Of a stretch of 64,000 bases of DNA, positions 11,727 to 37,613 are shown one piece after another. The notes beneath the pieces are model-generated. The model was not told the origin of the DNA, searched no databases, and saw only the letters and a list, made by a program, of their open reading frames with translations. Location of the stretch: positions 62,001 through 126,000 of IMG/VR virus record IMGVR_UViG_3300035670_000038. One strand, given 5' to 3'. Within the stretch, counting starts at the first letter, position 1; every line of letters starts with the position of its first letter. The DNA is from a virus. A program made the translations under genes and the position numbers.

Positions 11727-12557
11727 ATGAAAAAGATTATAATGGTTTTTTCACTTCTCACGATGGTCGCTTGTAAGGAAGTGGTTTATCTTACTGGCCC
11801 AACCGTCACCAAGACAGATACACTTGTAGTTTCTGGTGGACTGCAAAATGTGAATATTCGTATTGATTGGGCAAAGTTCAATAAGACGAATATTAGTAAA
11901 CTCACTAGTGAACTTATGGCAAATGCGGTATCCGATAGTGGTTTGAGGATTACGCATGTTGGAGCACGTCTTGTGTATCCCAACAACAATGCTTCCTTCT
12001 CACAGTCTGCCGCTCGTGACACTACCAATACTCGTTTAATTACGATGCAGGTTCCTCCTACCGACACCGCACATCTGTATGTTCTCGCGGTCTTTGATTC
12101 TGGGAGTGTTCGTAAGGCACTTAAAATGGGTGTAAAGCGTAATATTAGTATTCCTGCAAACGGGTCGGTTCTCTTTACTCTGGATTCGTTGACGTTACTG
12201 GATACTGAGTGGACTATTGATTCTATTGCGGACAGTACCCTTCGTATGGTCAACGATACGATTCGTGTGACTTTATCAGATACACTCAGTACTGGAAATG
12301 TTCGAGTTCGTGTAACTGACCCTTATCAGATTGGTACGCAGTTTATCGCATATTCTAATCGTATCGTGAAGTTTTATGGGTCTGGATTTGAGTATGGTAA
12401 TACCGATGGCTGGCGAAAGTTTGGTATTGTAACAAACAATCGTGACACCGCAACGTCTACAGATACATTCTGGCCTTACATTGATGGTGTATTCTTTAAT
12501 CTAAATGGTGAATATCTTGTCGGTAAGAAAGGTATTATTAAAACTACTTGGCAATAA
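11727..12557 (+). CDS. Putative lipoprotein (276 aa)
   Basis: The N-terminus MKKIIMVFSLLTMVACKE is a signal peptide with a lipobox (MVAC, Cys16). The rest is beta-rich with many Thr/Asp/Ser residues, resembling extracellular or periplasmic beta-sandwich proteins. Starts 1 nt after the VWA gene and its stop overlaps the selA start (TAATG). No enzyme motif seen. Confidence 0.7.
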   Translation: MKKIIMVFSLLTMVACKEVVYLTGPTVTKTDTLVVSGGLQNVNIRIDWAKFNKTNISKLTSELMANAVSDSGLRITHVGARLVYPNNNASFSQSAARDTTNTRLITMQVPPTDTAHLYVLAVFDSGSVRKALKMGVKRNISIPANGSVLFTLDSLTLLDTEWTIDSIADSTLRMVNDTIRVTLSDTLSTGNVRVRVTDPYQIGTQFIAYSNRIVKFYGSGFEYGNTDGWRKFGIVTNNRDTATSTDTFWPYIDGVFFNLNGEYLVGKKGIIKTTWQ

Positions 12558-13927
12558 TGAAAGATATACGGCGTGGATTACCTTCTGTTGGTAAACTGAT
12601 AGAGAAACAGGTAATTCGTGATATGATGATGTCCTCTCCGCGTTCATTAGTTATGGACGCGGTTAGGGCTGCCGTTGATGATGTACGATTGAATCCCGAT
12701 ATGATTCCCGACACGGATGAAAGTTGGGGAAATCTTGTACAAAAATATCTTGATAAGATGATGACTCGTTCACTTCGCACTGTCATCAATGCTACTGGTG
12801 TCATCGTACATACTAACTTAGGTAGAGCACCACTTGCAATACCAGCAATCAATGCAATACGAGACATCGCATATGATTTCTCTAATCTGGAATATGATAT
12901 TGAGAATGGTGTTCGAGGTTCACGACATACACATTGTGCCAAACTCTTATGTAAACTAACAGGTGCAGAAGATGCCATCGTGGTAAACAACTGTGCCGCA
13001 GCACTGGTACTCACTCTCAATACCTTATCACAGAATAAAGAAGCAATCATATCCAGAGGAGAACTGGTGGAGATTGGTGGTAGTTTCCGTGTTCCCGATA
13101 TTATGGCTCGGAGTAATGCACAATTGGTGGAAGTCGGAACCACGAATAGAACACATCTCAAAGATTATGAAAATGCTATTACACCAAATACAGGTGCAAT
13201 CTTATCGGTGCATAGAAGTAACTTTGTACAAAAAGGATTTGTATCATCTGTTCTTCCCGATGAACTGGTGTTATTATCGGAGAAATATAATATCCCACTC
13301 ATTCACGATTTCGGTAGTGGATTGATGGTTGACCTATCAGAATGGGGATTGTATGGTGAACCAACGGCAACAGATGCAGTCCGTGATGGTGCATCGGTGG
13401 TGATGATGAGTGGAGATAAATTATTAGGTGGACCCCAGGCAGGTATTATTTTGGGGAAGAAATCTATAATTAAAATGTTAAAGGAAAATCCATTGGCACG
13501 GGCATTTCGTGTAGATAAACTAACTCTCGCAGCATTGGAAGCAACATTAGAATTGTATTATGATAAAGATATAGCAGTGAATGAAATACCAGTTCTCAGA
13601 ATGATTACGATGTCTCCTTACGAATTACATACCCGTGCTGCTAACATAGTTGACAAACTGGTAGAGATGGGTTATAATGTAAATGTGGTTGATTCGGAGG
13701 CTACGATTGGTGGGGGAGCATTTCCTGACTCTAAAATAGACTCTATCGCAATTAGTATAAATGACATAAATCCAAATGAGGTAGATAAGAAGCTACGAGC
13801 ACTTGGAACACCTATTGTTGGTCGTATAGTAGATAATACATTATTATTAGATATGCGAACAGTTCCAGCAATATACGATGATATATTATACAGTAGTTTA
13901 ACCGAAGTATTAACCCTTGACAAATAA
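12557..13927 (+). CDS. selA: L-seryl-tRNA(Sec) selenium transferase (selenocysteine synthase)
   Basis: 456 aa, close to the 463 aa of E. coli SelA. SelA is a PLP enzyme converting Ser-tRNA(Sec) to Sec-tRNA(Sec) with selenophosphate. Family segments are clear: INATGVIVHTNLGRAPL, TGAEDAIVVNN, SRGELVEIGGSFRVPD, EVGTTNRTH, and the PLP lysine in MSGDKLLGGPQAG (Lys288). The last segment IVGRIVDNTLLLDMRT also matches. The ATG overlaps the preceding lipoprotein stop; the ribosome site is weak, so translation is probably coupled. The gene is intact. It pairs with tRNA-Sec at 23998 and SelD at 36579. I know of few phage SelA genes. Confidence 0.95.
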   Translation: MKDIRRGLPSVGKLIEKQVIRDMMMSSPRSLVMDAVRAAVDDVRLNPDMIPDTDESWGNLVQKYLDKMMTRSLRTVINATGVIVHTNLGRAPLAIPAINAIRDIAYDFSNLEYDIENGVRGSRHTHCAKLLCKLTGAEDAIVVNNCAAALVLTLNTLSQNKEAIISRGELVEIGGSFRVPDIMARSNAQLVEVGTTNRTHLKDYENAITPNTGAILSVHRSNFVQKGFVSSVLPDELVLLSEKYNIPLIHDFGSGLMVDLSEWGLYGEPTATDAVRDGASVVMMSGDKLLGGPQAGIILGKKSIIKMLKENPLARAFRVDKLTLAALEATLELYYDKDIAVNEIPVLRMITMSPYELHTRAANIVDKLVEMGYNVNVVDSEATIGGGAFPDSKIDSIAISINDINPNEVDKKLRALGTPIVGRIVDNTLLLDMRTVPAIYDDILYSSLTEVLTLDK

Positions 13928-13930
13928 CTT

Positions 13931-14110
13931 ATGAACGATTATATTCTATATCTAAGCTTGATGGTGATTGGTGGAGCAATCTGGAATATTAGAAATTATG
14001 TTAAGTATCTGGAAACTAAGAACGCAATACTACTTCAAATGCTAATGGAGAATGGTTATGACGCTGACTTGGCCCTACGGACCAGAAACGCTGACTCAAC
14101 ATCTGAATAG
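13931..14110 (+). CDS. Small membrane protein (59 aa)
   Basis: Starts 3 nt after selA. A hydrophobic helix (about residues 4-20) is followed by a charged helix. It overlaps the next gene by about 50 nt in another frame. No family recognised. Confidence 0.5.
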   Translation: MNDYILYLSLMVIGGAIWNIRNYVKYLETKNAILLQMLMENGYDADLALRTRNADSTSE

Positions 14111-14348
14111 ATTTTCCAAGTATCTCCACCGCAAAAGAAAGTTTGATATTCCTAATCTGTCTGTGATGACTTATAATATGTACCTTCACTACAAGACGGA
14201 AACTGGTGTACACATTGAACTGTATGAAGATTTGGCTCGTCCGTTAAAGAATAAAGTTCACTTATGGAGCTTAGGACAATTGCAAGATGTAGCGCAATTC
14301 CTAGCTAACAAGATACAAGTTCATCTTGGCGTGACAGCCGAACAATAA
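14058..14348 (+). CDS. Small protein, unknown (96 aa)
   Basis: The ATG at 14058 has GGAG 7 nt upstream; another ATG at 14052 is too close to it. Helical, with Tyr/Leu-rich repeats and no recognised motif. Ends next to a strong bidirectional terminator. Confidence 0.65.
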   Translation: MTLTWPYGPETLTQHLNRFSKYLHRKRKFDIPNLSVMTYNMYLHYKTETGVHIELYEDLARPLKNKVHLWSLGQLQDVAQFLANKIQVHLGVTAEQ

Positions 14349-14349
14349 G

Positions 14350-14375
14350 AAACCCACCATTCGGTGGGTTTTTTA
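14350..14375. terminator. Bidirectional intrinsic terminator
   Basis: AACCCACC-ATTC-GGTGGGTT followed by a T run. It lies between converging genes (selA operon on +, nuclease on -) and has A/T tails on both sides, so it can serve both strands. Confidence 0.9.
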
Positions 14376-14378
14376 TTA

Positions 14379-14999
14379 TTACTTAATTGGTAATCCAGTT
14401 AATCGTCGTACACTATCCAACGGCACCTTGTGCATCTCAAATGATTTACTACGTTCTGGAACATTTGGAAACACATACGATTCTACTTGGTCCTTGTAAC
14501 GGAGTACTTTCCAGCAGTGCGTTGGAACAGCAACTCTCTTGATTCGTGATACTTCACCCACACATCCCGCTTGAACAAATACAGAATCATTTTCTACAGC
14601 AAGAACACGAGTCCACTCTTCCAAGTTCTTCCACTGCCCACGATTAAGTCCTGGATATTGTGGTGCCATATTTGTGAAATAGAAACTTTCTGCCATATGA
14701 ACGTCATTACAACGTGCGTCTGCTGCTGGGGAAATGTGTCCTCTGTCAAATCCAGACTTTACATAATCTTCGTCAATATCACTTTCCTTACGAACTTGTG
14801 GGTCTGGAAGAAATTTATCGGTTCTCTTTGCGGGGGTCTTACATTCTAATTCACCACGGGTCGTTCCCCATTCTACTAAGATAGGATAGTGCAGTGACTT
14901 AGAAAACACAGAGATATAATTCTTATGAACGACACGAATTGTATCTTGTGCAGTCAAAGGTGAAACAAATAATACCAACAATAATAAAATCTTTTTCAT
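14379..14999 (-). CDS. Secreted DNA/RNA non-specific endonuclease (DRGH family)
   Basis: 206 aa. The signal peptide MKKILLLLVLFVSPLTAQ is followed by a ββα-metal nuclease domain with GFDRGHISPAADAR (DRGH at 85-88, catalytic His) and FYFTNMAPQYPGLNRGQW (metal-binding Asn region). Such enzymes cut single- and double-stranded DNA and RNA. GGAG precedes the ATG. It stands alone on the minus strand with its own upstream region (TATAAATA on that strand at 15041). A secreted nuclease could degrade DNA in the periplasm or outside the cell; target unknown. Confidence 0.88.
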   Translation of the reverse strand: MKKILLLLVLFVSPLTAQDTIRVVHKNYISVFSKSLHYPILVEWGTTRGELECKTPAKRTDKFLPDPQVRKESDIDEDYVKSGFDRGHISPAADARCNDVHMAESFYFTNMAPQYPGLNRGQWKNLEEWTRVLAVENDSVFVQAGCVGEVSRIKRVAVPTHCWKVLRYKDQVESYVFPNVPERSKSFEMHKVPLDSVRRLTGLPIK

Positions 15000-15069
15000 A
15001 CTGTCTCCAAAAAGGTCATTCATAAATAGTTTCCTCACTATTTATAGATTGGATATTTCCGGAGGATTC

Positions 15070-16437
15070 ATGTCTCAGTATAAACTGGATATAATACCAA
15101 GTCAACTCTCTGATGCATTGGTAAACATCAACCAACATGGTAAAGATGGTTGGGAGTTCATACACTTATATAATAATATGGGTGTGTTTAAAGCAGCAGC
15201 CGCAGGGTCGATAACCAGCGGTTCTTTGAACCCAACCGCGGACGCATTTGGTCGTAATCGTGTATCCGAACAATTCACACTAGGTGACTACAAACATATC
15301 TATGGAAATATTGCGGATACCTTCATCAATAAGTTAACTGGTGACGGAGATGTTTCATATAATATAAACGAGGCATCGGTTACCTTATCTGCTACCAATA
15401 GTGGAAGTTCTGCAATTCACCAAACCAAAATGTATCATCATTATATGCCTGGCAAGAGTCAGTTCATTCTTTCCAGTTTTGTGTTTGGTGCACCAGTAAA
15501 TGGATCCACAAAACGTACTGGATACTTTGATGACCATAACGGTATCTTCCTCGAACAAGATGCTACGGGAAGTTTACAATTTGTTATCCGTTCCGCAACT
15601 AACGGTACTGGGTCTATCGTAGAAAATAGAGTCAAACAAGAAAATTGGAATGTCAATACATTGTCAAGTGGTGATTTTACTCTTGATGTCACTAAATCCG
15701 CATTACTATATATTGATTTCCAATGGTTAGCGGTTGGTCGTGTTCGTATGGGATTTATTCATAAGGGCATTGGAGTTATTTGTCACGTATTTGACCACAC
15801 GAATTTGACCGATGTGGCATATATGCAAAACCCAAATCTTCCAGTTCGATGTGAAATTATAAATTCTACAACTGTCGCATCGTCGATGGATCAAATTTGT
15901 TCTACGGTAGTGAGTGAAGGTGGATATAACGAAGCGGGTCGTGCGTTCTCTATTTCCAATGACAGTTTCCGCTCACTTACGAGTGGGTCAACTTTACCAA
16001 TCCTCGCAATCAGATTAAAAAATTCTGTGAATGGGCTACCAAATCGTGCATTCGTTCGTTTACAAGAAGCAAGTGTATTCACTGACCAACAAAGTATTCG
16101 ATTCCTATTAAGTAAGTTACCTAGTGGGTCAATGTTAACCACAGCAAGTGCATGGGTGTCGGTGAATAACAATAATTCTTTGGTAGAATACAATACAAGT
16201 GCTACTGGATACACCGATGGAACTGTGTTACTCTCTGGATTCGTTGGGGCAAATTCTTTAAACCCAACACAAGCAAATCCACTAAGTACTACTAGAGGTG
16301 GAGTAGATAATAAGCAAAACTTCATTACACAAAATTATGATAGTACAGATAGTGAAATATATGTGTTAATTGCAAAGAACATGACCGCTAGTACAACAAA
16401 TGTTGGTGGATCGTTATTGTGGTCAGAAATTTATTAA
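15070..16437 (+). CDS. Virion structural protein (fibre or head-decoration type)
   Basis: 455 aa, Ser/Thr/Asn-rich and beta-rich, with the segment ADAFGRNRVSEQFTL near residue 60 that recurs in phage structural proteins. The ATG follows CCGGAGG. No enzymatic motif. It is followed 3 nt later by a second structural-like gene. Likely exposed on the particle; exact position unknown. Confidence 0.7.
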   Translation: MSQYKLDIIPSQLSDALVNINQHGKDGWEFIHLYNNMGVFKAAAAGSITSGSLNPTADAFGRNRVSEQFTLGDYKHIYGNIADTFINKLTGDGDVSYNINEASVTLSATNSGSSAIHQTKMYHHYMPGKSQFILSSFVFGAPVNGSTKRTGYFDDHNGIFLEQDATGSLQFVIRSATNGTGSIVENRVKQENWNVNTLSSGDFTLDVTKSALLYIDFQWLAVGRVRMGFIHKGIGVICHVFDHTNLTDVAYMQNPNLPVRCEIINSTTVASSMDQICSTVVSEGGYNEAGRAFSISNDSFRSLTSGSTLPILAIRLKNSVNGLPNRAFVRLQEASVFTDQQSIRFLLSKLPSGSMLTTASAWVSVNNNNSLVEYNTSATGYTDGTVLLSGFVGANSLNPTQANPLSTTRGGVDNKQNFITQNYDSTDSEIYVLIAKNMTASTTNVGGSLLWSEIY

Positions 16438-16440
16438 CAT

Positions 16441-17091
16441 ATGCCATTATCATTAACTAATCAAAATGATGCAGGTAGTTTCGGTTTAACTGGAACAACA
16501 GGTAGATTCGCTGCTTCGGTCACAGTTGTGGCGGATAGTATTCGTGCATTCTTAACTGGCAGTTCTTCATCCTCATACGATGCTGCAGCAGTCAACACGT
16601 GGGTAAAGGTGACCCAAGCAGAATATAATAGTGTTGCTGCAAGATTGTCCTCCGTTACAAAGGTTGGTGCAACAGACTTACAGGTTAACACTAGACTTAT
16701 CGCAACAGGATATAACCTTTCACAAACAAACGATTTTACCATACCATCCGACACATACATTTTTGGTATGATAATTGAACCATGGAATACTAATAGTTCT
16801 GGTAGTGTTGGGTATACCACTACCGTTACTGGTAGTATCAGCGATTACAATACTTACTTTGGTAATAATTTCGTAGGATTAATTGGTGGTGGTCGTAATT
16901 ATTTTATTCTTAAAAAACCAACCACAGCTACAACATCTACTGTGTATCCATTCGTAACGATGAGTGCTTCTCCAAATGGTATGAATTATGAAGGATGGGG
17001 TTGGACTGGAACGATTTGGCAATATACCACCGCGGCTTCTAACACGATGGCTAAATTCCAATTACTCACCACAACAAATAAACAGTGGTAA
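16441..17091 (+). CDS. Virion structural protein, fibre-like (216 aa)
   Basis: Low-charge, Thr/Ser/Gly/Asn-rich beta protein (e.g. SSSSSYDAAAVNTW, TTTVTGSISDYNTYFGNN), typical of phage tail-fibre or decoration proteins. Directly follows the previous structural gene. No homologue recognised. Confidence 0.6.
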   Translation: MPLSLTNQNDAGSFGLTGTTGRFAASVTVVADSIRAFLTGSSSSSYDAAAVNTWVKVTQAEYNSVAARLSSVTKVGATDLQVNTRLIATGYNLSQTNDFTIPSDTYIFGMIIEPWNTNSSGSVGYTTTVTGSISDYNTYFGNNFVGLIGGGRNYFILKKPTTATTSTVYPFVTMSASPNGMNYEGWGWTGTIWQYTTAASNTMAKFQLLTTTNKQW

Positions 17092-17114
17092 TAAATAGTA
17101 TTTAATATAATACA

Positions 17115-17170
17115 ATTCTTAATGAAATCTTAATGTACGGGGACTTGTCTTAGGCAGGTTCCCGTATTAT
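17115..17170 (+). promoter_or_regulatory. Repeated leader element, copy 2
   Basis: Matches 9377-9432 except for two loop bases. Carries CTTAATG twice, 11 bp apart, and the same 12-bp hairpin. It sits 44 nt before the MoxR-type ATPase gene, so the ATPase and the distant VWA gene are probably co-regulated. Confidence 0.75.
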
Positions 17171-17214
17171 ATTTCTAGAGTAATGAAGTCCACACACTCT
17201 CTCTATGAGGCACT

Positions 17215-18381
17215 ATGACTACTCTGGTAAAGGTTCTCGACAACTTCACTGCGATTGACCACAACGGCAACGACATCACGGATGAGATTCCGTTCACCGC
17301 TCGTAAGCGTGCATACACGAATGGTGTCGCCCTTCGTATGGTGGCGACTAAGACGGGTAAGACGCAGTGGCGTGATACGGACCTCGCGGATTTCGAGGCG
17401 CTCCGTAAGACGGCGGTTCCTACGAAGCCAATTGAGAATGTGAAGAATGAGCTGGAGAATGATGTGGTGGAGTTCTTGAAGGATTGTGAGAAGGTCAAGC
17501 CCGCACATCTTATTATGGATTCGCTGAAGTGGCGTTATCTGATGCGGTCAGTCCTTCGTGGCAAGAATATTATGATGACTGGTCCTTCGGGTTGTGGTAA
17601 GACCCTCGCTGCGCAGACCGTGGCTAAGGTTCTTGATGGTCGGCAGTTCTTCTACTTTAACGTTGGTGCAACCCAAGACCCGCGTTCTACTCTTATCGGA
17701 AATACCCATTACAGCAAGGACAAGGGTACCTTCGTAGCGGAGGCTCTGTTCGTCAAGGCGATTCAGACTCCGAACGCTATCGTTCTCCTTGACGAGCTGA
17801 CCCGTGGACACGCCGATGCGTGGAATATTCTGATGACGGTCCTCGACGAGAACCAGCGGTATCTTCGTATTGACGAGATGCCCGATACTCCGACGATTAA
17901 GGTGGCAAAGGGTGTGACCTTTATCGCTACGGCAAACATCGGTGCCGAGTATACCGCCACCCGCGTCCTCGACCGCGCGATGATGGACCGATTCGCTTCG
18001 GTGGTCGAGATGGAACCGCTGGGTAAGGATGATGAGGTCAAGCTTCTTACGATGACGTATCCTGAGGTGTCGGCACATAATCTGTCCGCTATCGCTGAGA
18101 TTGCAGACCACACTCGTACTCAGGTTCGTAGTGATGACCCGAAGGTGACTACCTCTATCTCATCCCGTATGACTGTCGAGATGGCTGGTCTGTTGAATGA
18201 CGGGTTCAATCTCGCAGAGGCGGCTGAGGCGTGTATCTATCCCTTCTTCTCTCCCGCTGGTGGTAATGACTCTGAGCGGACGTATATGAGGCAGTTGGTA
18301 CAGAAGTTCTTCTCCACGGATTCGAATGGAACCCAGGCGCCGTGGGAGAATATCGCTAAGGACGAGAACACTCCGTTCTAA
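17215..18381 (+). CDS. MoxR/CobS-type AAA+ ATPase
   Basis: 388 aa. Walker A GPSGCGKT (residues 123-130), Walker B IVLLDELT near 188, sensor-like FIATANIG and an arginine-finger region LDRAMMDRF are all visible, in the order expected for MoxR/CobS proteins. These ATPases act with VWA partners in chaperone-like metal insertion or complex remodelling. The partner is probably the VWA protein at 9464, which has the same leader. Codon use is biased like that partner. The N-terminal 100 residues are not recognised. Confidence 0.85.
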   Translation: MTTLVKVLDNFTAIDHNGNDITDEIPFTARKRAYTNGVALRMVATKTGKTQWRDTDLADFEALRKTAVPTKPIENVKNELENDVVEFLKDCEKVKPAHLIMDSLKWRYLMRSVLRGKNIMMTGPSGCGKTLAAQTVAKVLDGRQFFYFNVGATQDPRSTLIGNTHYSKDKGTFVAEALFVKAIQTPNAIVLLDELTRGHADAWNILMTVLDENQRYLRIDEMPDTPTIKVAKGVTFIATANIGAEYTATRVLDRAMMDRFASVVEMEPLGKDDEVKLLTMTYPEVSAHNLSAIAEIADHTRTQVRSDDPKVTTSISSRMTVEMAGLLNDGFNLAEAAEACIYPFFSPAGGNDSERTYMRQLVQKFFSTDSNGTQAPWENIAKDENTPF

Positions 18382-18551
18382 TGTGTAATTGCAAGAGATA
18401 CGACCCAGAGGGTGAACGTGATAGTGGGTACGCCTGTTACTATTGTAACGGGCGTATTCCCGTTCGTTCTATTCACCAAGAAAATGTAAATGGTAAAATC
18501 TTTTATTTCTGTTCTTCCGACTGTGCGCATCTGTGGTCAAGTATAGAGTAA
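18381..18551 (+). CDS. Small zinc-finger protein (56 aa)
   Basis: The ATG overlaps the ATPase stop by 1 nt. CNC, CYYCNGRI and YFCSSDCAHLW form a treble-clef arrangement like TRASH/MYM-type metal-binding domains. Probably a metal- or protein-binding accessory factor; coupling suggests it is linked to the ATPase. Confidence 0.65.
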   Translation: MCNCKRYDPEGERDSGYACYYCNGRIPVRSIHQENVNGKIFYFCSSDCAHLWSSIE

Positions 18552-18585
18552 ATGATATGTATAGAAGTACCCACTAAGAGGTTTT

Positions 18586-19149
18586 ATGAATCCACGATAT
18601 AATGTGATTATCCCAAAAATAATAAAAGAGAAAGTTCTTGATTTCGCTATGAATTCTGGACTATCTTATTTTAATATAAACGCGGACCCTCGTAAGGAAG
18701 CAGAGAAGGGGAAGCGTAGATTTGCTATGCTTACAGAGTATCCCGAATTGGAAATATCACAAATGGTAGATGCGTTCAAAGAAATCGCATACGAAGAAAT
18801 TGGTATTGCAGAAATTCTACCCGAACCACAATTCGGTAATTTTATTGGTGTAAATTTAGAAGGTGGAAGTGTGCATGAACACCAAGATGCTCGTGATGAA
18901 AATAATAATGTTCATCTCCGTTTTAATTTTATGATTCAGAAACCAGATATTGGTGGTAATCCTATCATTAATGGAAAAGAATATTGGATTGATGAGGATA
19001 CGTGTTGGATGAACTACGCATCGGAATGGAAACATGGGTCAACACCTGTGGCGGGTTCACGTGCACGTGTGGTATTGAGTATGGGTGCATGTGTACCTGA
19101 ACATATTGTACGAGAAAAGATTTCCAAAAAAATTGGATGGGAGGCATAA
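18586..19149 (+). CDS. 2-oxoglutarate/Fe(II)-dependent oxygenase-like protein
   Basis: 187 aa. VHEHQDARDENN supplies the HxD iron site. Downstream come WKHGSTPVAGSRARVVLSMG with the distal His and the 2OG-binding Arg. Order and spacing match 2OG-Fe(II) dioxygenases. Substrate unknown; phage members often hydroxylate protein side chains or bases. Its stop overlaps the next start. Confidence 0.75.
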   Translation: MNPRYNVIIPKIIKEKVLDFAMNSGLSYFNINADPRKEAEKGKRRFAMLTEYPELEISQMVDAFKEIAYEEIGIAEILPEPQFGNFIGVNLEGGSVHEHQDARDENNNVHLRFNFMIQKPDIGGNPIINGKEYWIDEDTCWMNYASEWKHGSTPVAGSRARVVLSMGACVPEHIVREKISKKIGWEA

Positions 19150-21368: not shown

Positions 21369-21873
21369 TAAGTTAATGGTAGTTGCTCATCCCGACGATG
21401 AAACGTTATTCGGTGGTGGGGAACTGATTAAGCATGCAAAAGAATATAAAGTAATTGTATTAGATTATGGAAATCATATTACCCGTCATATTGAATTCCT
21501 ACGGGCAATGCAAATGATTGGTATAGAGAAGTGGGAACATTGGGATGGGGAACCCTACAAGACCTCTGCCGCATATAATGAATCTATCCTCATCCCCCGC
21601 ATAGAACGGGTCCTGGATGAGCAGAATTGGGATATGGTGGTCACTCACAATCAAGGTGGGGAGTACGGTCACTATCGGCATGTATCCACGCATAACGTGA
21701 TGGCACGGCTGTGTCCTGAGAAATTATATGTATTTAATACGGACTTGACTACTCGACTTCCCGACGATATATTACATAAGAAGCACGAGGTACTTTCTAC
21801 CGCATACCAATCGCAATATAACGTATTAAAATGGTTTCGATGGGAATATGAGGTTCTAACTAAATACCAATAA
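21361..21873 (+). CDS. PIG-L/LmbE-family N-acetylglucosaminyl deacetylase
   Basis: 170 aa, with a GTG start overlapping nagB. The zinc motif AHPDDETLFGGG at residue 9 and the later HNQGGEYGHYRHVSTHN supply the metal and catalytic residues of the PIG-L family, which removes acetyl groups from GlcNAc-containing compounds. Slightly shorter than the 200-plus aa usual. Substrate unknown; pairing with NagB points to amino-sugar metabolism. Confidence 0.88.
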   Translation: MINKLMVVAHPDDETLFGGGELIKHAKEYKVIVLDYGNHITRHIEFLRAMQMIGIEKWEHWDGEPYKTSAAYNESILIPRIERVLDEQNWDMVVTHNQGGEYGHYRHVSTHNVMARLCPEKLYVFNTDLTTRLPDDILHKKHEVLSTAYQSQYNVLKWFRWEYEVLTKYQ

Positions 21874-23997: not shown

Positions 23998-24098
23998 GGG
24001 AGTGCAGTGAAGCTGGTGGTTCGACTGATCTTCAAAATCAGTAAGTCTTATACCCAACTCCATAGACTGCGGGGTTCGATTCCTCGGCATTCCCGCCA
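23998..24098 (+). tRNA. selC: tRNA-Sec (anticodon TCA)
   Basis: 101 nt with an 8-bp acceptor stem (GGGAGTGC/GCATTCCC, one G-U) and a 5-bp T stem, the 8+5 form of bacterial tRNA-Sec. The anticodon arm is ACTGAT-CTTCAAA-ATCAGT, so the anticodon is TCA, reading UGA. A long variable arm (AGTCT/AGACT plus an extra AT pair) is present. Discriminator G and a genome-encoded CCA follow; none of the other tRNAs here carries CCA. The D stem has one G.G mismatch, so a functional check is needed. Confidence 0.93.
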
Positions 24099-30351: not shown

Positions 30352-30376
30352 TTTGTTCTCCATTGAAGTTATACTA

Positions 30377-30404: not shown

Positions 30405-30417
30405 GGGGGCAGGGGGT

Positions 30418-30490
30418 CTGTTACAATTCCGTTACAATTGGACAAGATTGGACTATGGGTACAACCCTTGTCCAGCGTTTTATCACGCGG
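30418..30490. repeat. GTTACAATT tandem and TTTTATCAC motif
   Basis: GTTACAATTCCGTTACAATT, the same 20-nt tandem as at 28885, then CGTTTTATCACGCGG. Lies between a terminator and the 30377 promoter. Confidence 0.65.
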
Positions 30491-30506
30491 TTTTGGGCAT
30501 AAAAAA

Positions 30507-30527
30507 CCCCACCTTCGGAGGGTGGGG
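30507..30527 (-). terminator. Intrinsic terminator (minus strand)
   Basis: CCCCACC-TTCGGA-GGGTGGGG, with TTTTTTATG on the minus strand, after the gene ending at 30546. Confidence 0.85.
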
Positions 30528-30545
30528 AAATCCCATAGGGTTTTT

Positions 30546-30821
30546 TTAATTCTGAATTGCGGTCAAAAGCTTCGTTAACTGTAACTTCTCCCAGCTCAAC
30601 TCCGCATGCTTCCTATTCAATGCGTCCAGCTCATCGTCAATCGCCTTGATACGGACGGGGGCGTGTTCCTCAACAACCTTGACGATGTTAAACCCATGAC
30701 CCAACCCCTCTTGCGGGTCAAAGTGGGGAAGGGGAAGAGAGTGAATAGGATTCTCTGCTGTGATTGACTCCATCACCCTTTCCCTACTGACGGGCTTCTT
30801 CTTACCGAAGAGTGGGGTCAT
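30546..30821 (-). CDS. Small helical protein, unknown (91 aa)
   Basis: C-terminal coiled-coil-like region (IKAIDDELDALNRKHAELSW). Start overlaps the stop of the neighbour. No family recognised. Confidence 0.6.
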   Translation of the reverse strand: MTPLFGKKKPVSRERVMESITAENPIHSLPLPHFDPQEGLGHGFNIVKVVEEHAPVRIKAIDDELDALNRKHAELSWEKLQLTKLLTAIQN

Positions 30822-31204
30822 TACGCGACCACCTTACGCGGACGGCCACGCTTCTTGTACCCAGCCGTAATCTGAGCCTCAGCCTCCAGGTGGGCCTTCT
30901 CAGCATCGGTCCCAGCCTTGGGGGAACCCGTATAACCAGACCAATCATACTGCGACACCGTATCAAGAGTACCAAAGGTACGCCGCGGGTTAATCTGAGC
31001 CCACGACTTGATGCCGTAGATGATCCACGAATTGCGGTCAACCATATACCGACCAAGCTTCTGTACATCCGTCTGCACGTAGACCTTATCGAACTTACGA
31101 CCAGTCTCTACCTGCCACTTGTCACCCTTGACGCCAACGTTCTGAGTCATAAGAGCCTTAACGAAAGCCTCAACCTTCTGCGAATACTCGACAGCCTTAT
31201 CCAT
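30821..31204 (-). CDS. Protein with C-terminal AT-hook-like tail (127 aa)
   Basis: The end KKRGRPRKVVA is a consensus AT-hook, so DNA minor-groove binding is likely. The rest has no recognised domain. The start follows a long 5' region (about 90 nt) after a strong promoter. Confidence 0.7.
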   Translation of the reverse strand: MDKAVEYSQKVEAFVKALMTQNVGVKGDKWQVETGRKFDKVYVQTDVQKLGRYMVDRNSWIIYGIKSWAQINPRRTFGTLDTVSQYDWSGYTGSPKAGTDAEKAHLEAEAQITAGYKKRGRPRKVVA

Positions 31205-31300
31205 TTTAGTTTGCCTCCCACAAGTTATTAAAGAACTTGTATAGTGTTTTCCTACTCTAGTGAATAACCTTCGTGTTATTACACTTTTCCTAACATACTA

Positions 31301-31329
31301 AATATACCCACTAAATACCAGTTTGTCAA
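31301..31329 (-). promoter_or_regulatory. Consensus early promoter (minus strand)
   Basis: TTGACA, 17-bp spacer, TATATT. The leader to the ATG at 31204 is about 90 nt. Confidence 0.85.
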
Positions 31330-31655
31330 GCCCCTACAATTTCTTTTACCTTTTCGTACTTATACCACATTAGGGCCATCTGGTAACCAGCGTATAACTC
31401 ACCCTCAATTAAATCTTTATATTCATCAATCTGCTTTAGGTTCAGCGGTGTCTCTTCACCCTCAAACATCACCGATTGCCCGTTGGTCAACTTGGTATGC
31501 ATCTGTTCCAGCATCGGCATCAGAGTCAAGGTGTTGGTCACGACCTCTTCGAATTCATCTTTATACTTCGGGTCACTATCCAACTTGTCCCAGCAAATCT
31601 GTATCTGCTCTGGGTCATTGATAGCCATCTCTTGGATTTCACGTAGTCGGGTCAC
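31326..31655 (-). CDS. Helical acidic protein, unknown (109 aa)
   Basis: GTG start overlapping the SWIM gene's stop (GTGA). All-helical, acidic, no motif. End of the operon that starts at 32961. Confidence 0.6.
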   Translation of the reverse strand: MTRLREIQEMAINDPEQIQICWDKLDSDPKYKDEFEEVVTNTLTLMPMLEQMHTKLTNGQSVMFEGEETPLNLKQIDEYKDLIEGELYAGYQMALMWYKYEKVKEIVGA

Positions 31656-31939
31656 TGCTTGTTCTCCTTGTCTGAGTGCTTACACATTCTGCGGAAGGAA
31701 TACCCTGCGCAGCTACACATCCACTTCCCGTTCGGTTGTCGGGTCAAGGTATAGGTTGCACCCCTCGACCCCTGTACCTTCTTCTGCTCTACCTTGACCT
31801 TCTCCACCTTGGGACGGTTCCACGATATCTGGCTCAACGTGGTCCCGTGGGGAACCTCTTTCCAATCTGGCATGATGTAGAGCTTATTTCCAATCTTTGC
31901 TAGTGCGGGACTATGTATCCCATTCGATGTATACTTCAT
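31652..31939 (-). CDS. SWIM zinc-finger protein (95 aa)
   Basis: KWMCSCAGYSFRRMCKH is a short SWIM-type CxCxnCxH motif at the C-terminus. SWIM domains bind DNA or proteins. Start overlaps the HTH gene. Confidence 0.7.
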   Translation of the reverse strand: MKYTSNGIHSPALAKIGNKLYIMPDWKEVPHGTTLSQISWNRPKVEKVKVEQKKVQGSRGATYTLTRQPNGKWMCSCAGYSFRRMCKHSDKENKQ

Positions 31940-32385
31940 ACACCGACCGTTACGGTGACCTTCCCCTCAATGCGAAGCAGAGTAGTGATAATCTTTCGGA
32001 GATTGTCCACCTGCTTCTGATTCTCTACGGTGACCTTCGTATACTGCGTAGTTCCAGTAGGGAAGGTCAGATGCCGGCGTCTTGCCGCCAACACCTTCGG
32101 TCTAGCATTGTAGAGTTTCGCAAACTTCTTGAATCCCTTCTGTTCGTAGTAGTGATGTCCGTTTTCAAGCATATGACTCTTTGCCAGAATGTCGTGCAGC
32201 TTGTCGGTCACCTCCACACCCTGTAAGTCCCAATATGCCTTTGCATCCGCGGCGTCTCGACGATACTTGAGCGTGGCGGGGTCCACCCCCAACACCTCGG
32301 CCGCCTCTGGGGTTGTGTAGTACCCCGTGATGCGAGCGGGTGCCCGCTTGGTCTTACGGCTGATGGTTGGATTATAAAGTTTCAT
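31936..32385 (-). CDS. Helix-turn-helix protein (149 aa)
   Basis: GYYTTPEAAEVLGVDPATLK is a MerR/excisionase-like HTH near residue 21. The middle and end are basic. Possibly the regulator of the motifs in this region, but nothing direct shows that. Confidence 0.68.
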   Translation of the reverse strand: MKLYNPTISRKTKRAPARITGYYTTPEAAEVLGVDPATLKYRRDAADAKAYWDLQGVEVTDKLHDILAKSHMLENGHHYYEQKGFKKFAKLYNARPKVLAARRRHLTFPTGTTQYTKVTVENQKQVDNLRKIITTLLRIEGKVTVTVGV

Positions 32386-32386
32386 A

Positions 32387-32566
32387 TTAGAGGTCACGGT
32401 TAGAAGGATTCTCCTCAACCCACCCCATCCAAGCGATAAGGGCATCTCGTGCCTCTCGACGCTCTAGACCTAGTGCGGCCTGAAGGTAGGGAGCCGCCCC
32501 GTACATGTTGACCTCACCAGACTCGCGGAGGCGATTGAGAAACTCGAACTCAGGACGAATAGCCAT
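32387..32566 (-). CDS. Conserved small phage protein (59 aa)
   Basis: FEFLNRLRESGEVNMYGAAPY, then an Ala/Leu/Arg helix and DALIAWM. This arrangement is frequent in a small phage protein family of unknown function. RBS weak; overlaps nothing. Confidence 0.65.
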   Translation of the reverse strand: MAIRPEFEFLNRLRESGEVNMYGAAPYLQAALGLERREARDALIAWMGWVEENPSNRDL

Positions 32567-32568
32567 TT

Positions 32569-32961
32569 TTAGTTTTCTCCCGTAATCTTAAAGGTCTGCC
32601 ACTCACCATTCACTCGAAGGTACCCATACTCACACCACGAACCCTTACGGAACCCCAACCACTCTTCAACGTTGGTGTGGACAAGGGCGGACACCCCATT
32701 CTCACCGCGGTCCCGACCATAGAAGGTAGTCATACCCTCCGTGCGGTCATCAAACGGGTTGCGTTCCGTGGGGGAACCGATTTGCTGGTCAATCGAAGAA
32801 ATATCACCCATATCCAGAAGGCGGTCCAGCTTGTCCTCATCAGAATAGAAATCTCGAAGGATAGTTCCCGCGTGTTCGGGATACCCGTCCCAATGTCCGT
32901 AGACAGAACGAACCGTCACCCCATCCTCCTGCACCTTACCAACCGTCCATCGCGTAGCCAT
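32569..32961 (-). CDS. Conserved phage protein, unknown (130 aa)
   Basis: SVYGHWDGYPEHAGTIL and LLDMGDISSID are hallmarks I recognise from a widespread small phage protein of unknown function. Leads the operon 31326-32961; GGAG before ATG. Confidence 0.72.
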   Translation of the reverse strand: MATRWTVGKVQEDGVTVRSVYGHWDGYPEHAGTILRDFYSDEDKLDRLLDMGDISSIDQQIGSPTERNPFDDRTEGMTTFYGRDRGENGVSALVHTNVEEWLGFRKGSWCEYGYLRVNGEWQTFKITGEN

Positions 32962-32989
32962 CGTGTGTCTCCTTAAGTGGTGTTTAGGT

Positions 32990-33018
32990 AATATAACCTA
33001 TTATCGGTCAGAAGTCAA
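32990..33018 (-). promoter_or_regulatory. Early-type promoter (minus strand)
   Basis: TTGACT, 17-bp spacer, TATATT, 29 nt before the ATG at 32961. The -35 lies in the end of the upstream gene. Confidence 0.8.
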
Positions 33019-33201
33019 GGGGGCGTCCCCCATCGTCTTGACCATATCGTTATAGTCATCCGCCAACCCCGCCATCTTCCGTAGCTCAGCGATGGCGACA
33101 CTCTTATCCCCAAACTCGTAGACCGCGAGAAGGACAGGGAGGATACCGGTCCAGGTGGGGGTCAGGTCGATAGTCTCAACCTTTTTCGTCTTTTTAGCCA
33201 T
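33001..33201 (-). CDS. Small conserved phage protein (66 aa)
   Basis: Basic start, then DLTPTWTGILPVLLAVYEFG and AIAELRKMAGLADDY, a pattern I associate with small phage proteins of unknown function. Start overlaps the neighbour by 1 nt. Confidence 0.65.
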   Translation of the reverse strand: MAKKTKKVETIDLTPTWTGILPVLLAVYEFGDKSVAIAELRKMAGLADDYNDMVKTMGDAPLTSDR

Positions 33202-33371
33202 TAACGAACCCCCCGCTCTTCCAGACACTGCGACACATACTCTAGGTCGGCGGAAGCACAGTCATACTCATACGACCCGAACTCCATCTCTTCCATCATC
33301 TCATCCAGCTCCTTGTACCACGCCAACATCTCATCCGTGGACATCTGCTTGACCGTCTTAACTTCTAACAT
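33201..33371 (-). CDS. Small acidic protein, unknown (56 aa)
   Basis: Helical, Met/Glu-rich, with TAATG coupling to the next gene. Promoter at 33400. Confidence 0.6.
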   Translation of the reverse strand: MLEVKTVKQMSTDEMLAWYKELDEMMEEMEFGSYEYDCASADLEYVSQCLEERGVR

Positions 33372-33399
33372 TCTGTGTCTCCTTTAGTGGTGTGTATCT

Positions 33400-33428
33400 A
33401 ATATAACCTTATTAGTCAGCGTAGTCAA
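33400..33428 (-). promoter_or_regulatory. Early-type promoter (minus strand)
   Basis: TTGACT, 17-bp spacer, TATATT, 29 nt before the ATG at 33371. Confidence 0.8.
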
Positions 33429-33657
33429 GGGGGTCAAACTGAAAGAACCCCTCAACCCCATCTGGGAACTCTACCGACTGGATCATCTCATCGGTGATAG
33501 TATCCATATCCCGATAGTCCCATTCGGTATAGTCATTCAGCTCATCCTCACGGATGACCCATTCCCAGTTGTGGTACTTCCCATTCGTGTGAGTGTTGAT
33601 GACAAGGAAGCGGTCACAGGTGGACCAATAGACGATGTTTTTTAGTGTGTTGTTCAT
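33412..33657 (-). CDS. Small protein, unknown, perhaps leaderless mRNA (81 aa)
   Basis: The ATG lies only 6 nt after the -10 element of its promoter and has no ribosome site. Acidic, aromatic-rich protein. No family recognised. Confidence 0.55.
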   Translation of the reverse strand: MNNTLKNIVYWSTCDRFLVINTHTNGKYHNWEWVIREDELNDYTEWDYRDMDTITDEMIQSVEFPDGVEGFFQFDPLDYAD

Positions 33658-33663
33658 ATAGGT

Positions 33664-33692
33664 AATATAAGCTAATAACCCCCCACCCACAA
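33664..33692 (-). promoter_or_regulatory. Early-type promoter (minus strand)
   Basis: TTGTGG, 17-bp spacer, TATATT. A normal start point would fall at or next to the ATG at 33657. Confidence 0.7.
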
Positions 33693-33741
33693 GGGGCGGA
33701 GGGTATTATAACGTAATTGTTACAATTGGACAGGGTTAGGA

Positions 33742-33885
33742 CTAGAAGCTGGACAGGTACACACTCATCCCCAACTGGAAGAGGATAACCCCATAACAGA
33801 CCGCCAGCATCTTGTGACCGAATCGGTTGTCAAGGGACGCGGAATGATTGACGGCTGAAAGGAACTCATGGACGTACTTGGTCAT
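33742..33885 (-). CDS. Small membrane protein (47 aa)
   Basis: C-terminal hydrophobic helix (MLAVCYGVILFQLGMSVYL). Paired with the next small membrane gene. No family recognised. Confidence 0.5.
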   Translation of the reverse strand: MTKYVHEFLSAVNHSASLDNRFGHKMLAVCYGVILFQLGMSVYLSSF

Positions 33886-33895
33886 GCTGGTCACC

Positions 33896-34084
33896 TCAAA
33901 GAGAAAGAAAGGAAAAGATACCACCAAAGATGTTCTTCAAGATGAATGACCACATCAGATAGGGAATCATCTTGGTCACTACCTCAAAGACCAACCAACC
34001 CAACCAGCCTATCAAGAGAAACCAACGGGCTTTCCAGATAAACTCCGTGACTACTTTCACACTCTCTGGGATGTCACGGAACAT
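33896..34084 (-). CDS. Small membrane protein (62 aa)
   Basis: Two hydrophobic segments (FLLIGWLGWLVFEVV and an IFGGIFSFL end). Weak ribosome site; a better one (AAGGAG) lies further upstream without an in-frame start. No family recognised. Confidence 0.5.
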   Translation of the reverse strand: MFRDIPESVKVVTEFIWKARWFLLIGWLGWLVFEVVTKMIPYLMWSFILKNIFGGIFSFLSL

Positions 34085-34155
34085 CTCACCCAGAAAGGCT
34101 TGGAGGGACTTGACTACTGCGTTGAAGGTATATCTCCTTGTTGAAGTGTACCTTT

Positions 34156-34183
34156 AATATAACCTATTATCGGTAGAACACAA
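34156..34183 (-). promoter_or_regulatory. Early-type promoter (minus strand)
   Basis: TTGTGT, 16-bp spacer, TATATT, upstream of the two small membrane genes. Confidence 0.7.
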
Positions 34184-34397
34184 GGGTGTGAATGTAACGA
34201 ATATGTAACACCGCTGCCCTGCCCCCATCCCATAGACCCCCCTTGACTTTTTAGGGACTAAGGGGGGCGGGGGCGATGAAAGGCGGGGCGGGGAGCCTCT
34301 TTCCGATCCGAGGTCAATTTTTTTCCCTATAGCCCTTTTTTCTATAAAGTATTTAATAGAAAATCCCTAAGCCTTTATTGACTTAGGGATTTCTTTT
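34184..34397. other. Intergenic region, G/C-rich hairpin and terminator
   Basis: Contains GTAAC repeats, a CCCCCCTT/AAGGGGGG inverted repeat (about 34233-34268) and a terminator hairpin at 34361-34392 (AAATCCCTAAG/CTTAGGGATTT). No gene seen. Confidence 0.6.
34361..34392. terminator. Bidirectional-looking intrinsic terminator
   Basis: 11-bp stem with T-rich tails on both strands; ends the minus-strand nuclease operon. Confidence 0.8.
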
Positions 34398-34562
34398 TTA
34401 ACTTTCTGCTAGGATATCTAGGAGTTCTTCATAGGTGAATTCACACGTACATTTCCCATCTCCGATATCTTCTTTTCGTAAGACAAGTTCTCCATCAATG
34501 ACATCTCGGAACATTTCAAAATGCTCGTCACAATAGGGACATAGAAAGGTTTGTATAGTCAT
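34398..34562 (-). CDS. Small zinc-binding protein (54 aa)
   Basis: CPYC and CTC pairs. Overlaps the next gene's stop (ATGA). Acidic. No family recognised. Confidence 0.6.
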   Translation of the reverse strand: MTIQTFLCPYCDEHFEMFRDVIDGELVLRKEDIGDGKCTCEFTYEELLDILAES

Positions 34563-35032
34563 AGTTCAAAATACTCCCATGTATAATACTCTAGGAAATG
34601 CTCTTTGTACCCAACGCTGGTTTTAATAATTCTATTATAGAATTCCTCACGAATGGTAATATTGCGAAGTAGTACACACGCAGTAGCTTCCTTATTAATC
34701 TGGACAAAGATTGCCTCACTATCCTTTGGAAGCCAGTATCCTGCCTTTCTTATCGGGATACGAACTGTCTTAAAGGTTTGCGGACGTTGATGTGAATTCC
34801 ACGATAGTGACCGTTCTACCTCAATAGCAAAGTTTGGATTTTCAACACCAATTAAATCAATCCCATAAATGTTATCGTTCTCTTTGACCGTGTTTGTGGG
34901 ATTGTTCTTGTTCCACCACGTTAATACCTTATTACGAACAAAGGTATCATCGTAATCCTTTTGCAGAGTGTTGCAGCTCTCCTTTTCCTCATTGGAGAGC
35001 TGCTTGCTCGGTTGGTAGGTTTGCGTTGACAT
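34559..35032 (-). CDS. PD-(D/E)XK nuclease-like protein (157 aa)
   Basis: YGIDLIGVENPNFAIEVERS gives an acidic D...E-x-E pair as in restriction-like nuclease folds, although the usual Lys is replaced by Arg, so activity is uncertain. The N-terminal part is helical. It sits directly after a DUF262-HNH gene in one operon. GTG/ATG starts at 35044/35041 are also possible. Confidence 0.55.
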   Translation of the reverse strand: MSTQTYQPSKQLSNEEKESCNTLQKDYDDTFVRNKVLTWWNKNNPTNTVKENDNIYGIDLIGVENPNFAIEVERSLSWNSHQRPQTFKTVRIPIRKAGYWLPKDSEAIFVQINKEATACVLLRNITIREEFYNRIIKTSVGYKEHFLEYYTWEYFEL

Positions 35033-35033
35033 A

Positions 35034-36416
35034 TTAATCATCACTCTTTAAGAGATTAGCCTTCTTGTAGACCAACTGGAGATTGTCTCGCGTGGTCTGA
35101 CCACCCTTCGAGTGGGCGGTGATGTGGTCCAGATGGGTCTTGTTCCCATCAAGAACCTCAATCCACGGGATATCCTTCCCCGTCAGCGGACACCGATGCT
35201 CCTGCACGTTCCAGCAGTAGATGCGGTCACTCCAATCCCCAAACCGCTTCTTGTCCTTCGGAACACTCAACGTTCCCTCAGGGAGTCGGTCGAGTTGCGC
35301 AATGAGCTGCGACAGTCTGGCCTCACGCACCTCCGCCGTGGTATTACGCTGCGCACCGTAGTAGGTACGTCCGTCCTTACCAAAGGTGATGAAGGTTTTG
35401 GTATCCTCACGGAGAGCGTTAATCGTGACCACAAACCACTCAAAGAAATCCGACTCATTGATAATCGAAATATTCTGATTGTGGAGATAATCAATTAACA
35501 TAATGAGGTCGAAGAGTGACGCCTTCGACGGAATCCCGCGGGTAGTCCCCGTCTTGGACTCGTACTGACAGATGGCGTCCAAATCCTTCAAGACCTCCTT
35601 CAAGCGACCAAGCTTCTTGGTTTCAAGGGAGTTGTCATCATACGCCGCATCACGATCCTCACGCATGATGTTACTATCGAACCCCTTCGCAATATGGACC
35701 AGAGCTGACACAAGGAATTCCTCGTGAATACGCCGCTGGCAGTTCGGGTCGCTAAAGTAGAGGCGGAGCATCTTCTTGTACTTGTCACCAAGACTCCGAA
35801 TGCTGTCCGCCACCTTACACACGATAGCGTTCCGCTTCTCCTGCGGATTAAGAGAAACACCGTTGTTCACCGCAATGAACATATCGTGCAGTTCCTGTCG
35901 CGTGGCGGCGTGCACAATAAACATCGGGATTTCGATGTTACGAATGTGCTCCTTCAACTTGTCAGGAATCCCCTTGAAATTAACATTACTTGAAGGGGTA
36001 AATGTCATATACTCAGGAATAGTCATTCCCGACATACGATATGAATGGTTCTGCTTCAACTGAAGCAGGTTGTTAAAGTATCGCATGAGAGTGCGAGTAC
36101 GGTTATTGCCGTCCACACTAATGTACTTGAAACCCTTGGAATGGAGGTCCGCAAAGTACTTGTAATCGTTACTATCCTTCCCCAAAACTTCCTCGCAATA
36201 CTTCATACACGATTCAACGTGTGCAAGGATAACGGGGTTCGGAGTAAATCCGCTAAACACGGAATTAAGATAGGCAAGCATTGCCTGTTTCGACCAACGC
36301 TCAGAGGACTGGAATCCCAGGTCAAGAAAAATCTCTTCCTCATCCTGTCTGGTAGCGAGGTCATTGATGGTCCACGTAGTGGACTCGGTGGTGCTACGCT
36401 GTAGCATCATCATCAT
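35034..36416 (-). CDS. DUF262/HNH endonuclease (GmrSD-like)
   Basis: 460 aa. The N-terminal part carries VDGNNRTRTLMRYF, a ParB-like DUF262 motif (usually DGQQR), and VNNGVSLNPQEKRNA. The C-terminus has CPLTG and LDHITAHSKGGQTTRDNLQL, an HNH with catalytic His. GmrSD-type proteins are NTP-dependent nucleases that cut modified DNA. GGAG precedes the ATG at 36416 and a consensus promoter lies upstream. In a phage it could act on host or rival phage DNA. Partner gene 34559 follows. Confidence 0.82.
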   Translation of the reverse strand: MMMMLQRSTTESTTWTINDLATRQDEEEIFLDLGFQSSERWSKQAMLAYLNSVFSGFTPNPVILAHVESCMKYCEEVLGKDSNDYKYFADLHSKGFKYISVDGNNRTRTLMRYFNNLLQLKQNHSYRMSGMTIPEYMTFTPSSNVNFKGIPDKLKEHIRNIEIPMFIVHAATRQELHDMFIAVNNGVSLNPQEKRNAIVCKVADSIRSLGDKYKKMLRLYFSDPNCQRRIHEEFLVSALVHIAKGFDSNIMREDRDAAYDDNSLETKKLGRLKEVLKDLDAICQYESKTGTTRGIPSKASLFDLIMLIDYLHNQNISIINESDFFEWFVVTINALREDTKTFITFGKDGRTYYGAQRNTTAEVREARLSQLIAQLDRLPEGTLSVPKDKKRFGDWSDRIYCWNVQEHRCPLTGKDIPWIEVLDGNKTHLDHITAHSKGGQTTRDNLQLVYKKANLLKSDD

Positions 36417-36525
36417 ACGTAATTCTCCTTTGATTCCCACTTTAAGTATTAGGGAATCATTTGGGTATGTTGTCCGTCACAAGCTCAAGTTGTCGTGACG
36501 GCGTTGGTAACGTACCAACATATGA

Positions 36526-36554
36526 AGTATACTATATGATAGTTCTGTTGTCAA
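36526..36554 (-). promoter_or_regulatory. Promoter embedded next to terminator (minus strand)
   Basis: TTGACA, 17-bp spacer, TATACT, just downstream of a terminator hairpin; drives the DUF262-HNH gene with about 110 nt leader. Confidence 0.85.
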
Positions 36555-36556
36555 GT

Positions 36557-36578
36557 TACCCAAAAAGATTGTTGGGTA
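36557..36578 (-). terminator. Terminator hairpin after selD
   Basis: TACCCAA/TTGGGTA stem starting right at the selD stop. On the minus strand its loop and flank match the hairpin at 51665. Confidence 0.75.
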
Positions 36579-37613
36579 TTAAATAATTTTTATTAGGGAA
36601 TCCCCTTCATTATACTCCCGTACTTCCCCAATAATAGTAGCCGTGGGGACATACGTAATATATTGTTTTACCTTATCACGAGGAACACACACCAATAATC
36701 CCCCCGATGTTTGCGGGTCGGTTAACAACCGAATCATTCGTTCATCAATTCTATCCCATTCCACCTTATCATCTAACCATTTTCTATTTCGTTTCCCCCC
36801 ACCTGTCACAAACTCATCCGTATCCCAGAAGTCAACTACCCCAGGTAGAGTCGGGATATCGTGGATAGTACCCACCTTGATACAGAGTTGCACCTTACTG
36901 GCCCGTGCGATGTGAGAAGCATGCCCAAGGAGACTGAATCCTGTGATATCGGTAGCACACTTAAATCCTAATTCGACTGCCCATCGTGACGCGTTATCAT
37001 TTAAGGTAATCATACTTTCGTACATTGTGTCAAGATACTCAGGGATCAAACGACCCCGTTTTGCTGCTGTAGAAAGAATACCTGTACCCAATTTCTTAGT
37101 TAACACCAACACATCACCCACCTGTGCTCCCTTATTTGACAGAATCTTATCTGGGTGTACAGTACCAGTGACCGACAATCCATATTTCGGTTCTTCGTCA
37201 ATTACCGTATGACCACCCACCAACTTTGCCCCCGCAGCGTGGACCGCATCTTGCCCACCACGGAGAATCTCAGTTAAGACTTCAAGGGGTAATGACTTTT
37301 CTGGAAAGGCGACCACGTTCATCGCAGTGATAGGGGTGCCACCCATAGCATACACATCGGAGAGGGCATTGGTGGCAGCGACTCGACCGAATCGGTACGG
37401 GTCATCCATAATAGGAGCAAAGAAATCTACAGTCTGGACGATGGCGATATCATCGGTCAGCTTATAGACCGCCGCATCGTCAAAGGTTTCTCGACCTACA
37501 AGAAGTCTAGGGTCACTATCTTTTGGAAGTGAGGAAAGGGCCGTGGAGAGTTCTCCAGGCCCCATCTTCGATGCACATCCTGCACATTTTGCATATTCGG
37601 TTAATTTAATCAT
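36579..37613 (-). CDS. selD: Selenide, water dikinase (selenophosphate synthetase)
   Basis: 344 aa (E. coli 347). SelD makes selenophosphate from selenide and ATP, the selenium donor for SelA. The catalytic segment is YAKCAGCASKMGP: Cys13 and Lys16 align with E. coli Cys17 and Lys20, so it uses Cys rather than Sec. VQTVDFFAPIMDDPYRFGR, AGAKLVGGHTV and LTDPQTSGGLLVCVP are family hallmarks. AGAGGA precedes the ATG, which overlaps the lipoprotein gene upstream. The gene is intact. Confidence 0.95.
   Translation of the reverse strand: MIKLTEYAKCAGCASKMGPGELSTALSSLPKDSDPRLLVGRETFDDAAVYKLTDDIAIVQTVDFFAPIMDDPYRFGRVAATNALSDVYAMGGTPITAMNVVAFPEKSLPLEVLTEILRGGQDAVHAAGAKLVGGHTVIDEEPKYGLSVTGTVHPDKILSNKGAQVGDVLVLTKKLGTGILSTAAKRGRLIPEYLDTMYESMITLNDNASRWAVELGFKCATDITGFSLLGHASHIARASKVQLCIKVGTIHDIPTLPGVVDFWDTDEFVTGGGKRNRKWLDDKVEWDRIDERMIRLLTDPQTSGGLLVCVPRDKVKQYITYVPTATIIGEVREYNEGDSLIKII

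Follow-up and report, generated by a model that had tools for sequence, protein, structure and literature searches.

A bacteriophage genome with selA, tRNA-Sec and selD genes and a candidate selenoprotein gene containing a conserved in-frame UGA

What use would a bacteriophage have for genes that make selenocysteinyl-tRNA (Sec-tRNA)? The question is raised by a viral DNA stretch of 64,000 nucleotides, positions 62001-126000 of the linear IMG/VR record IMGVR_UViG_3300035670_000038 (G000; 131,302 bp, incomplete), in which an original prediction recognized selA, a tRNA-Sec gene and selD. The whole of this stretch is termed the window, and all positions refer to it unless they are given as record positions. 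The answer that we regard as quite probable is that the phage makes its own Sec-tRNA for a selenoprotein of its own, which would be encoded by a gene with an in-frame UGA in the same window, and that it borrows seryl-tRNA synthetase and SelB from its host.

Genes for Sec-tRNA synthesis

The three genes are arranged as follows.

12557..13927, plus strand: selA, L-seryl-tRNA(Sec) selenium transferase, 456 amino acids (TIGR00474; Pfam SelA and N-terminal domain; pyridoxal phosphate (PLP) lysine Lys288)
23998..24098, plus strand: tRNA-Sec gene, UCA anticodon, encoded CCA (Rfam RF01852)
36579..37613, minus strand: selD, selenophosphate synthetase (TIGR00476; motif CAGCASKMGPG)

All three score above curated cut-offs and are intact, as the original prediction had stated. 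SelA matches TIGR00474 with 555.9 bits (curated equivalog cut-off, 267.9) as well as the Pfam SelA family, the N-terminal tRNA-binding domain PF12390 is also above its cut-off, and the PLP-binding lysine K288 sits within SGDKLLGGPQAG; the ATG at 12557 overlaps by one base with the TAA of the upstream gene. SelD matches TIGR00476 with 377 bits (equivalog cut-off, 125), its catalytic Cys and Lys are found in CAGCASKMGPG, and its start is either the ATG at 37613 or an alternative GTG at 37640. The tRNA-Sec gene matches RF01852 over its full length with 57.7 bits (gathering threshold, 47) and shows an 8-bp acceptor, a UCA anticodon, a long variable arm and an encoded CCA, although ARAGORN does not detect a tRNA-Sec at 23998-24098. 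It is the only tRNA with a UCA anticodon found in the record, the tRNA-Trp of which has the anticodon CCA; hence, the tRNA evidence fits Sec decoding. A suppressor-type tRNA-Trp(UCA) was not found in the record by the tRNA gene search.

A gene with a conserved in-frame UGA

A scan of the record for read-through-like frames identified a gene that standard gene calling cuts into two open reading frames (ORFs) of 60 and 141 amino acids. A search for in-frame UGA codons had been proposed by the original prediction, which missed this gene inside the same window.

54946..55557, plus strand: candidate selenoprotein gene, 203 codons, one internal UGA (TGA kept in 15/15 relatives; the most conserved block spans the UGA)
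55126..55128, plus strand: in-frame UGA, proposed Sec codon (residue 61), invariably TGA among the 11 distinct sequences aligned
54937..54941, plus strand: ribosome-binding site GGAGG of this gene, with a similar site in relatives

Homologues of this gene were identified in 15 other IMG/VR contigs belonging to several phage groups, some of which share little else with this phage, and every one of the 15 has TGA at the same codon; amino-acid identity to the more distant homologues is ~42-57%. A second search, using a pattern 34-45 codons past the UGA and thus blind to the UGA codon, retrieved exactly these 15 contigs. Several of these contigs are near-copies of one another, and 11 sequences were aligned. 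In this alignment, conservation of the protein peaks in GGITSxGFD-U-PMLRNWVxQFG, a block that extends across the UGA and has no variable ends there. A single codon (3 nt) separates the UGA from the next ATG (55132) in all relatives; this codon always encodes proline and varies at its third base only, and no ribosome-binding site comparable in strength to that of the first start precedes this ATG. In most pairs of sequences, both sides of the UGA show much less nonsynonymous than synonymous change, the contrast being weaker upstream in some pairs. The gene thus combines a conserved in-frame UGA with purifying selection before and after it, the pattern sought for a selenoprotein gene, and is a strong selenoprotein candidate, in which residue 61 would be Sec.

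A systematic comparison of the parts of the record shared with relatives revealed no further in-frame TGA on a coding strand that was convincingly conserved, and the matches on the opposite strand were regarded as artefacts. Two other UGA-spanning joins were rejected: that at record 1443, where an ordinary start with its own ribosome-binding site comes after, and that at record 38066, where the relative G003 has ~700 extra bases past the stop. Genome-wide recoding of UGA was also rejected, because TGA ends 23 of 83 long genes.

A hairpin downstream of the UGA

In the bacterial model of the selenocysteine insertion sequence (SECIS), the loop of a hairpin lies 16-37 nt from the UGA and starts with G. 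The following element was found downstream of the in-frame UGA.

55150..55162, plus strand: hairpin GUCCA-GUU-UGGAC (possible bacterial SECIS) with covariation; its loop follows the UGA by 26 nt

Its loop, with G as the first base, presumably fits that model. In a second clade the hairpin reads ACCCA-GUU-UGGGU, with two base pairs that differ in both partners; 97.5% of cells are paired, and none of 500 shuffles reached either the covariation score or the percentage paired. A second hairpin overlapping the first shows no covariation. Among the degenerate codons of invariant residues, only Asn AAT and Gln CAG are fixed, both of them in the hairpin region; a wider test was borderline (p = 0.06). 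These observations make it plausible, though not established, that the hairpin is a SECIS. Formate dehydrogenase, taken as a host selenoprotein for SECIS comparison, contained no UGA.

SelB, the host and the proposed pathway

No selB gene, and no elongation-factor GTPase close enough to match, was found in the whole 131,302-bp record, which agrees with the original prediction, and SelB is also absent from the relatives G001, G003 and G006-G011, which cover much of the part missing from the record. The complete bacterial Sec-decoding system, SelB included, is thus not found in the record, which is incomplete. The two Gemmatimonadaceae genomes with the nearest SelA and SelD encode SelB. Phage SelD is 59-60% identical to the SelD of these genomes, one of which has a UGA codon in place of the catalytic Cys codon (CAG-U-ASKMGPG; G018, L171 1549), the other having Cys, as in the phage. 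In a maximum-likelihood tree, the SelA of this phage and that of a related phage (G012; see below) group with two Gemmatimonadota SelAs with support of 100/99, on long branches. The similarity of SelA and SelD to those of Gemmatimonadota that have SelB makes a Gemmatimonadota-like host plausible, as a guess, and we infer that the host possesses SelB. As to whether the host has the pathway, which the original prediction had asked, the nearest genomes do have SelB, and the host itself is only guessed.

In the proposed pathway, phage SelD would supply selenophosphate, host seryl-tRNA synthetase would load serine on the phage tRNA-Sec, and phage SelA would turn the seryl-tRNA-Sec into Sec-tRNA, which host SelB would bring to the UGA at 55126, probably guided by the downstream hairpin. 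In relatives whose known parts hold no Sec genes, the host would have to provide the pathway. The phage module is a partial pathway, because it depends on the host for seryl-tRNA synthetase in charging and for SelB in insertion. The statement of the original prediction that the phage could charge its own Sec-tRNA stands in that the synthesis module is real, and has to be amended in that the host synthetase is also needed.

Alternative explanations

Several results weigh against this pathway. The searches made of IMG/VR, a phage collection and GTDB found no homologue with Cys at the UGA position, and the known parts of the relatives that have the UGA gene, whose records are partial, carry no Sec genes. 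The UGA protein belongs to no family in Pfam, PHROGs, NCBIfam or PDB, and its structure prediction was poor and not usable. Rfam contained no SECIS or other family matching the hairpin, the compensatory pairs of which number only two; as these separate two clades, they may reflect few events. That the UGA gene is a candidate, and that the host is a guess, count on the same side.

In view of the failure to find a Cys homologue and of the lack of Sec genes in the known parts of the relatives, the main rival is programmed read-through. In this explanation, a standard residue would be inserted at the UGA with low efficiency, yielding both a short (60 amino acids) and a long protein, and the Sec genes would be present for another reason. 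The retention of the UGA in all relatives agrees with this explanation as well, and read-through can likewise be stimulated by a hairpin downstream of the stop. We nevertheless consider it unlikely, since the rare set of selA, tRNA-Sec and selD occurs in the same phage, no suppressor-type tRNA-Trp(UCA) was found, and the strongest conservation falls on the residues around the UGA.

It is less likely still that the Sec genes serve host selenoproteins during infection, as auxiliary metabolism, and that the UGA gene is unrelated to them. The nearness of selA and selD to bacterial proteins suits such a role, as does the fact that SelB must be the host's, but the same genome holds a phage gene with a conserved UGA, the sole convincing case in the comparative scan.

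An arrangement of two genes, in which a 60-amino-acid ORF ending in UGA and a 141-amino-acid ORF starting at ATG 55132 are coupled by re-initiation, would explain the constant spacing of stop and ATG. This is improbable, given that the most conserved block crosses the UGA without variable ends, that the codon separating the two ORFs varies like one for proline, and that a strong ribosome-binding site is present at the first start only.

Phage origin and surroundings of the Sec genes

The preferred explanation, Sec-tRNA made by the phage for its own selenoprotein, presupposes that the Sec genes belong to the phage. The record contains phage structural, helicase and ribonucleotide reductase genes and is a genuine, although incomplete, sequence of a large, uncultured phage. 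It overlaps with a relative of 148 kb (G003) over ~64 kb (record 1-38.9k and 106-131k); record 39-106k, which holds selA, tRNA-Sec and selD, is missing from G003, and 86 kb of G003 are missing from G000. As each holds a part that the other lacks, we infer from this comparison a full phage genome of ~217 kb. The three Sec genes are scattered over three separate places, with phage genes around each; the following gene, for example, starts 1.1 kb after selA.

15049..16437, plus strand: virion structural protein (phrog_1645)

The related phage G012 (IMG/VR contig, locus L073), which is syntenic with record 36.0-48.9k, has a SelA of its own that is 53% identical to the one described here. Its selA is positioned between two backbone genes whose counterparts in this record adjoin each other at 43655/43658, whereas the selA of this phage is at record 74557. 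The presence of selA at another locus in a related phage argues against a host/phage chimera, and SelA is, from these sequence comparisons, a real phage gene in this phage group. The genes flanking selD are adjacent to each other, without selD, in the related phage G001; thus, selD was either gained in this phage or lost in G001. A gene for a GmrSD_N-like/HNH endonuclease (35034-36440, minus strand) adjoins selD and is kept in G001 at the point that lacks selD, and homing-type gene traffic may have brought selD in. A scan with narrow patterns found SelD in no other viral contig.

That the record is a host/phage chimera, or that its Sec genes are bacterial contamination, is hardly credible: SelA and SelD resemble bacterial proteins, and several "phage" database records with selA/selD matches are unannotated or plainly bacterial, but the three genes are placed among phage genes, selD is located between genes adjacent in G001, selA has another locus in a related phage, and the G+C content is 40% in the record vs 64% in Gemmatimonadota contigs. 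The chimera named as a danger by the original prediction was rejected on the synteny with G001 and on the second phage with selA (G012).

One contig, G013, was examined as a relative carrying Sec genes; its two ends hold, respectively, a piece of selA and tRNA-Sec with the beginning of selD (L074, L075, L079). It was rejected: no similarity to this phage was found in the 8.2 kb compared, and it probably represents a prophage within a bacterial selC locus. Likewise, unannotated "phage" records with selA/selD matches may be bacterial contamination and are unfit to be counted as phage Sec genes without checking.

A sulfotransferase-family gene (54298-54927) is located directly upstream of the UGA gene, and proteins with HTD/HTN repeats adjoin the UGA gene in G003 and G006. 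A radical SAM gene and a methyltransferase-like gene are found in phage groups that have the UGA gene (L038 6550-9787 in G003; L065 6746-7903; L067 1397-2560; G006 7069-11707, L179), and such a pair is directly beside the UGA gene in L065-L069. A radical SAM gene is also present near tail genes in Thermus phages, in which no homologue of the UGA gene was found; hence, the radical SAM gene as a partner of the UGA gene is only a lead.

The tRNA-Sec gene is ~34 kb distant from an array of at least 24 tRNA genes (58117-63945 and on through the record to 131302). The phage has a transfer-messenger RNA (tmRNA) of its own at 53636-53977, and a permuted, alphaproteobacterial-type tmRNA is present in phages with the UGA gene (L062 and L063 13186-13498). 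An A-type iron-sulfur carrier protein is encoded at record 21559-21870.

Comparison with known systems

The bacterial Sec-decoding trait comprises SelA, SelB, tRNA-Sec, SelD and selenoprotein genes with SECIS elements. The phage shares with it orthodox SelA, tRNA-Sec and SelD and an in-frame UGA with a downstream hairpin; it differs in that the genes are phage-encoded and scattered, SelB is missing, and the selenoprotein candidate is of no known family. Genes for tRNA-Sec have been reported in Basilisk-like phages (PMC6145125) and in three huge wastewater phages (PMC10747093), in which the tRNA gene is the only element described and its function is unknown or assumed, whereas selA, selD and a UGA gene are also present here. 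A viral SelA has been claimed at the virome level for deep-sea vent viruses (PMC5513705), where, in the accessible part of that paper, the claim is a pathway annotation that gives no genome context and mentions no tRNA-Sec or selenoprotein. A review of viral recoding, as far as its accessible part extends, treats selenocysteine for eukaryotic viruses (PMC8310308). The fowlpox glutathione peroxidase described there is likewise a virus-encoded selenoprotein, but it belongs to a known enzyme family and depends on eukaryotic-type decoding by host machinery, in contrast to the bacterial-type, phage-encoded machinery and the protein of no known family considered here.

In the open-access literature, we found neither a phage selenoprotein described nor any phage reported to combine selA, tRNA-Sec and selD. 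The original prediction, which knew of no described phage with this set, was correct to that extent and has to be narrowed by the earlier reports of phage tRNA-Sec genes and of virome SelA. What is new, as far as found, is the full Sec-tRNA set together with a candidate selenoprotein in a phage; the orthodox Sec genes themselves are of a known kind.

Implications

On balance, we favour the wider view that a phage selenoprotein family is distributed over at least three phage groups, apparently always in the Sec form, that some of these phages acquired SelA, tRNA-Sec and SelD while still depending on host SelB, and that Sec matters to phage reproduction. If this is true, selenocysteine would be under direct selection in phages, and phages would form a mobile reservoir from which Sec genes could spread horizontally. 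A further selenoprotein family would be added to those known, one that standard annotation splits at the UGA, and the way in which a phage feeds a decoding process dependent on host SelB would be opened to test.

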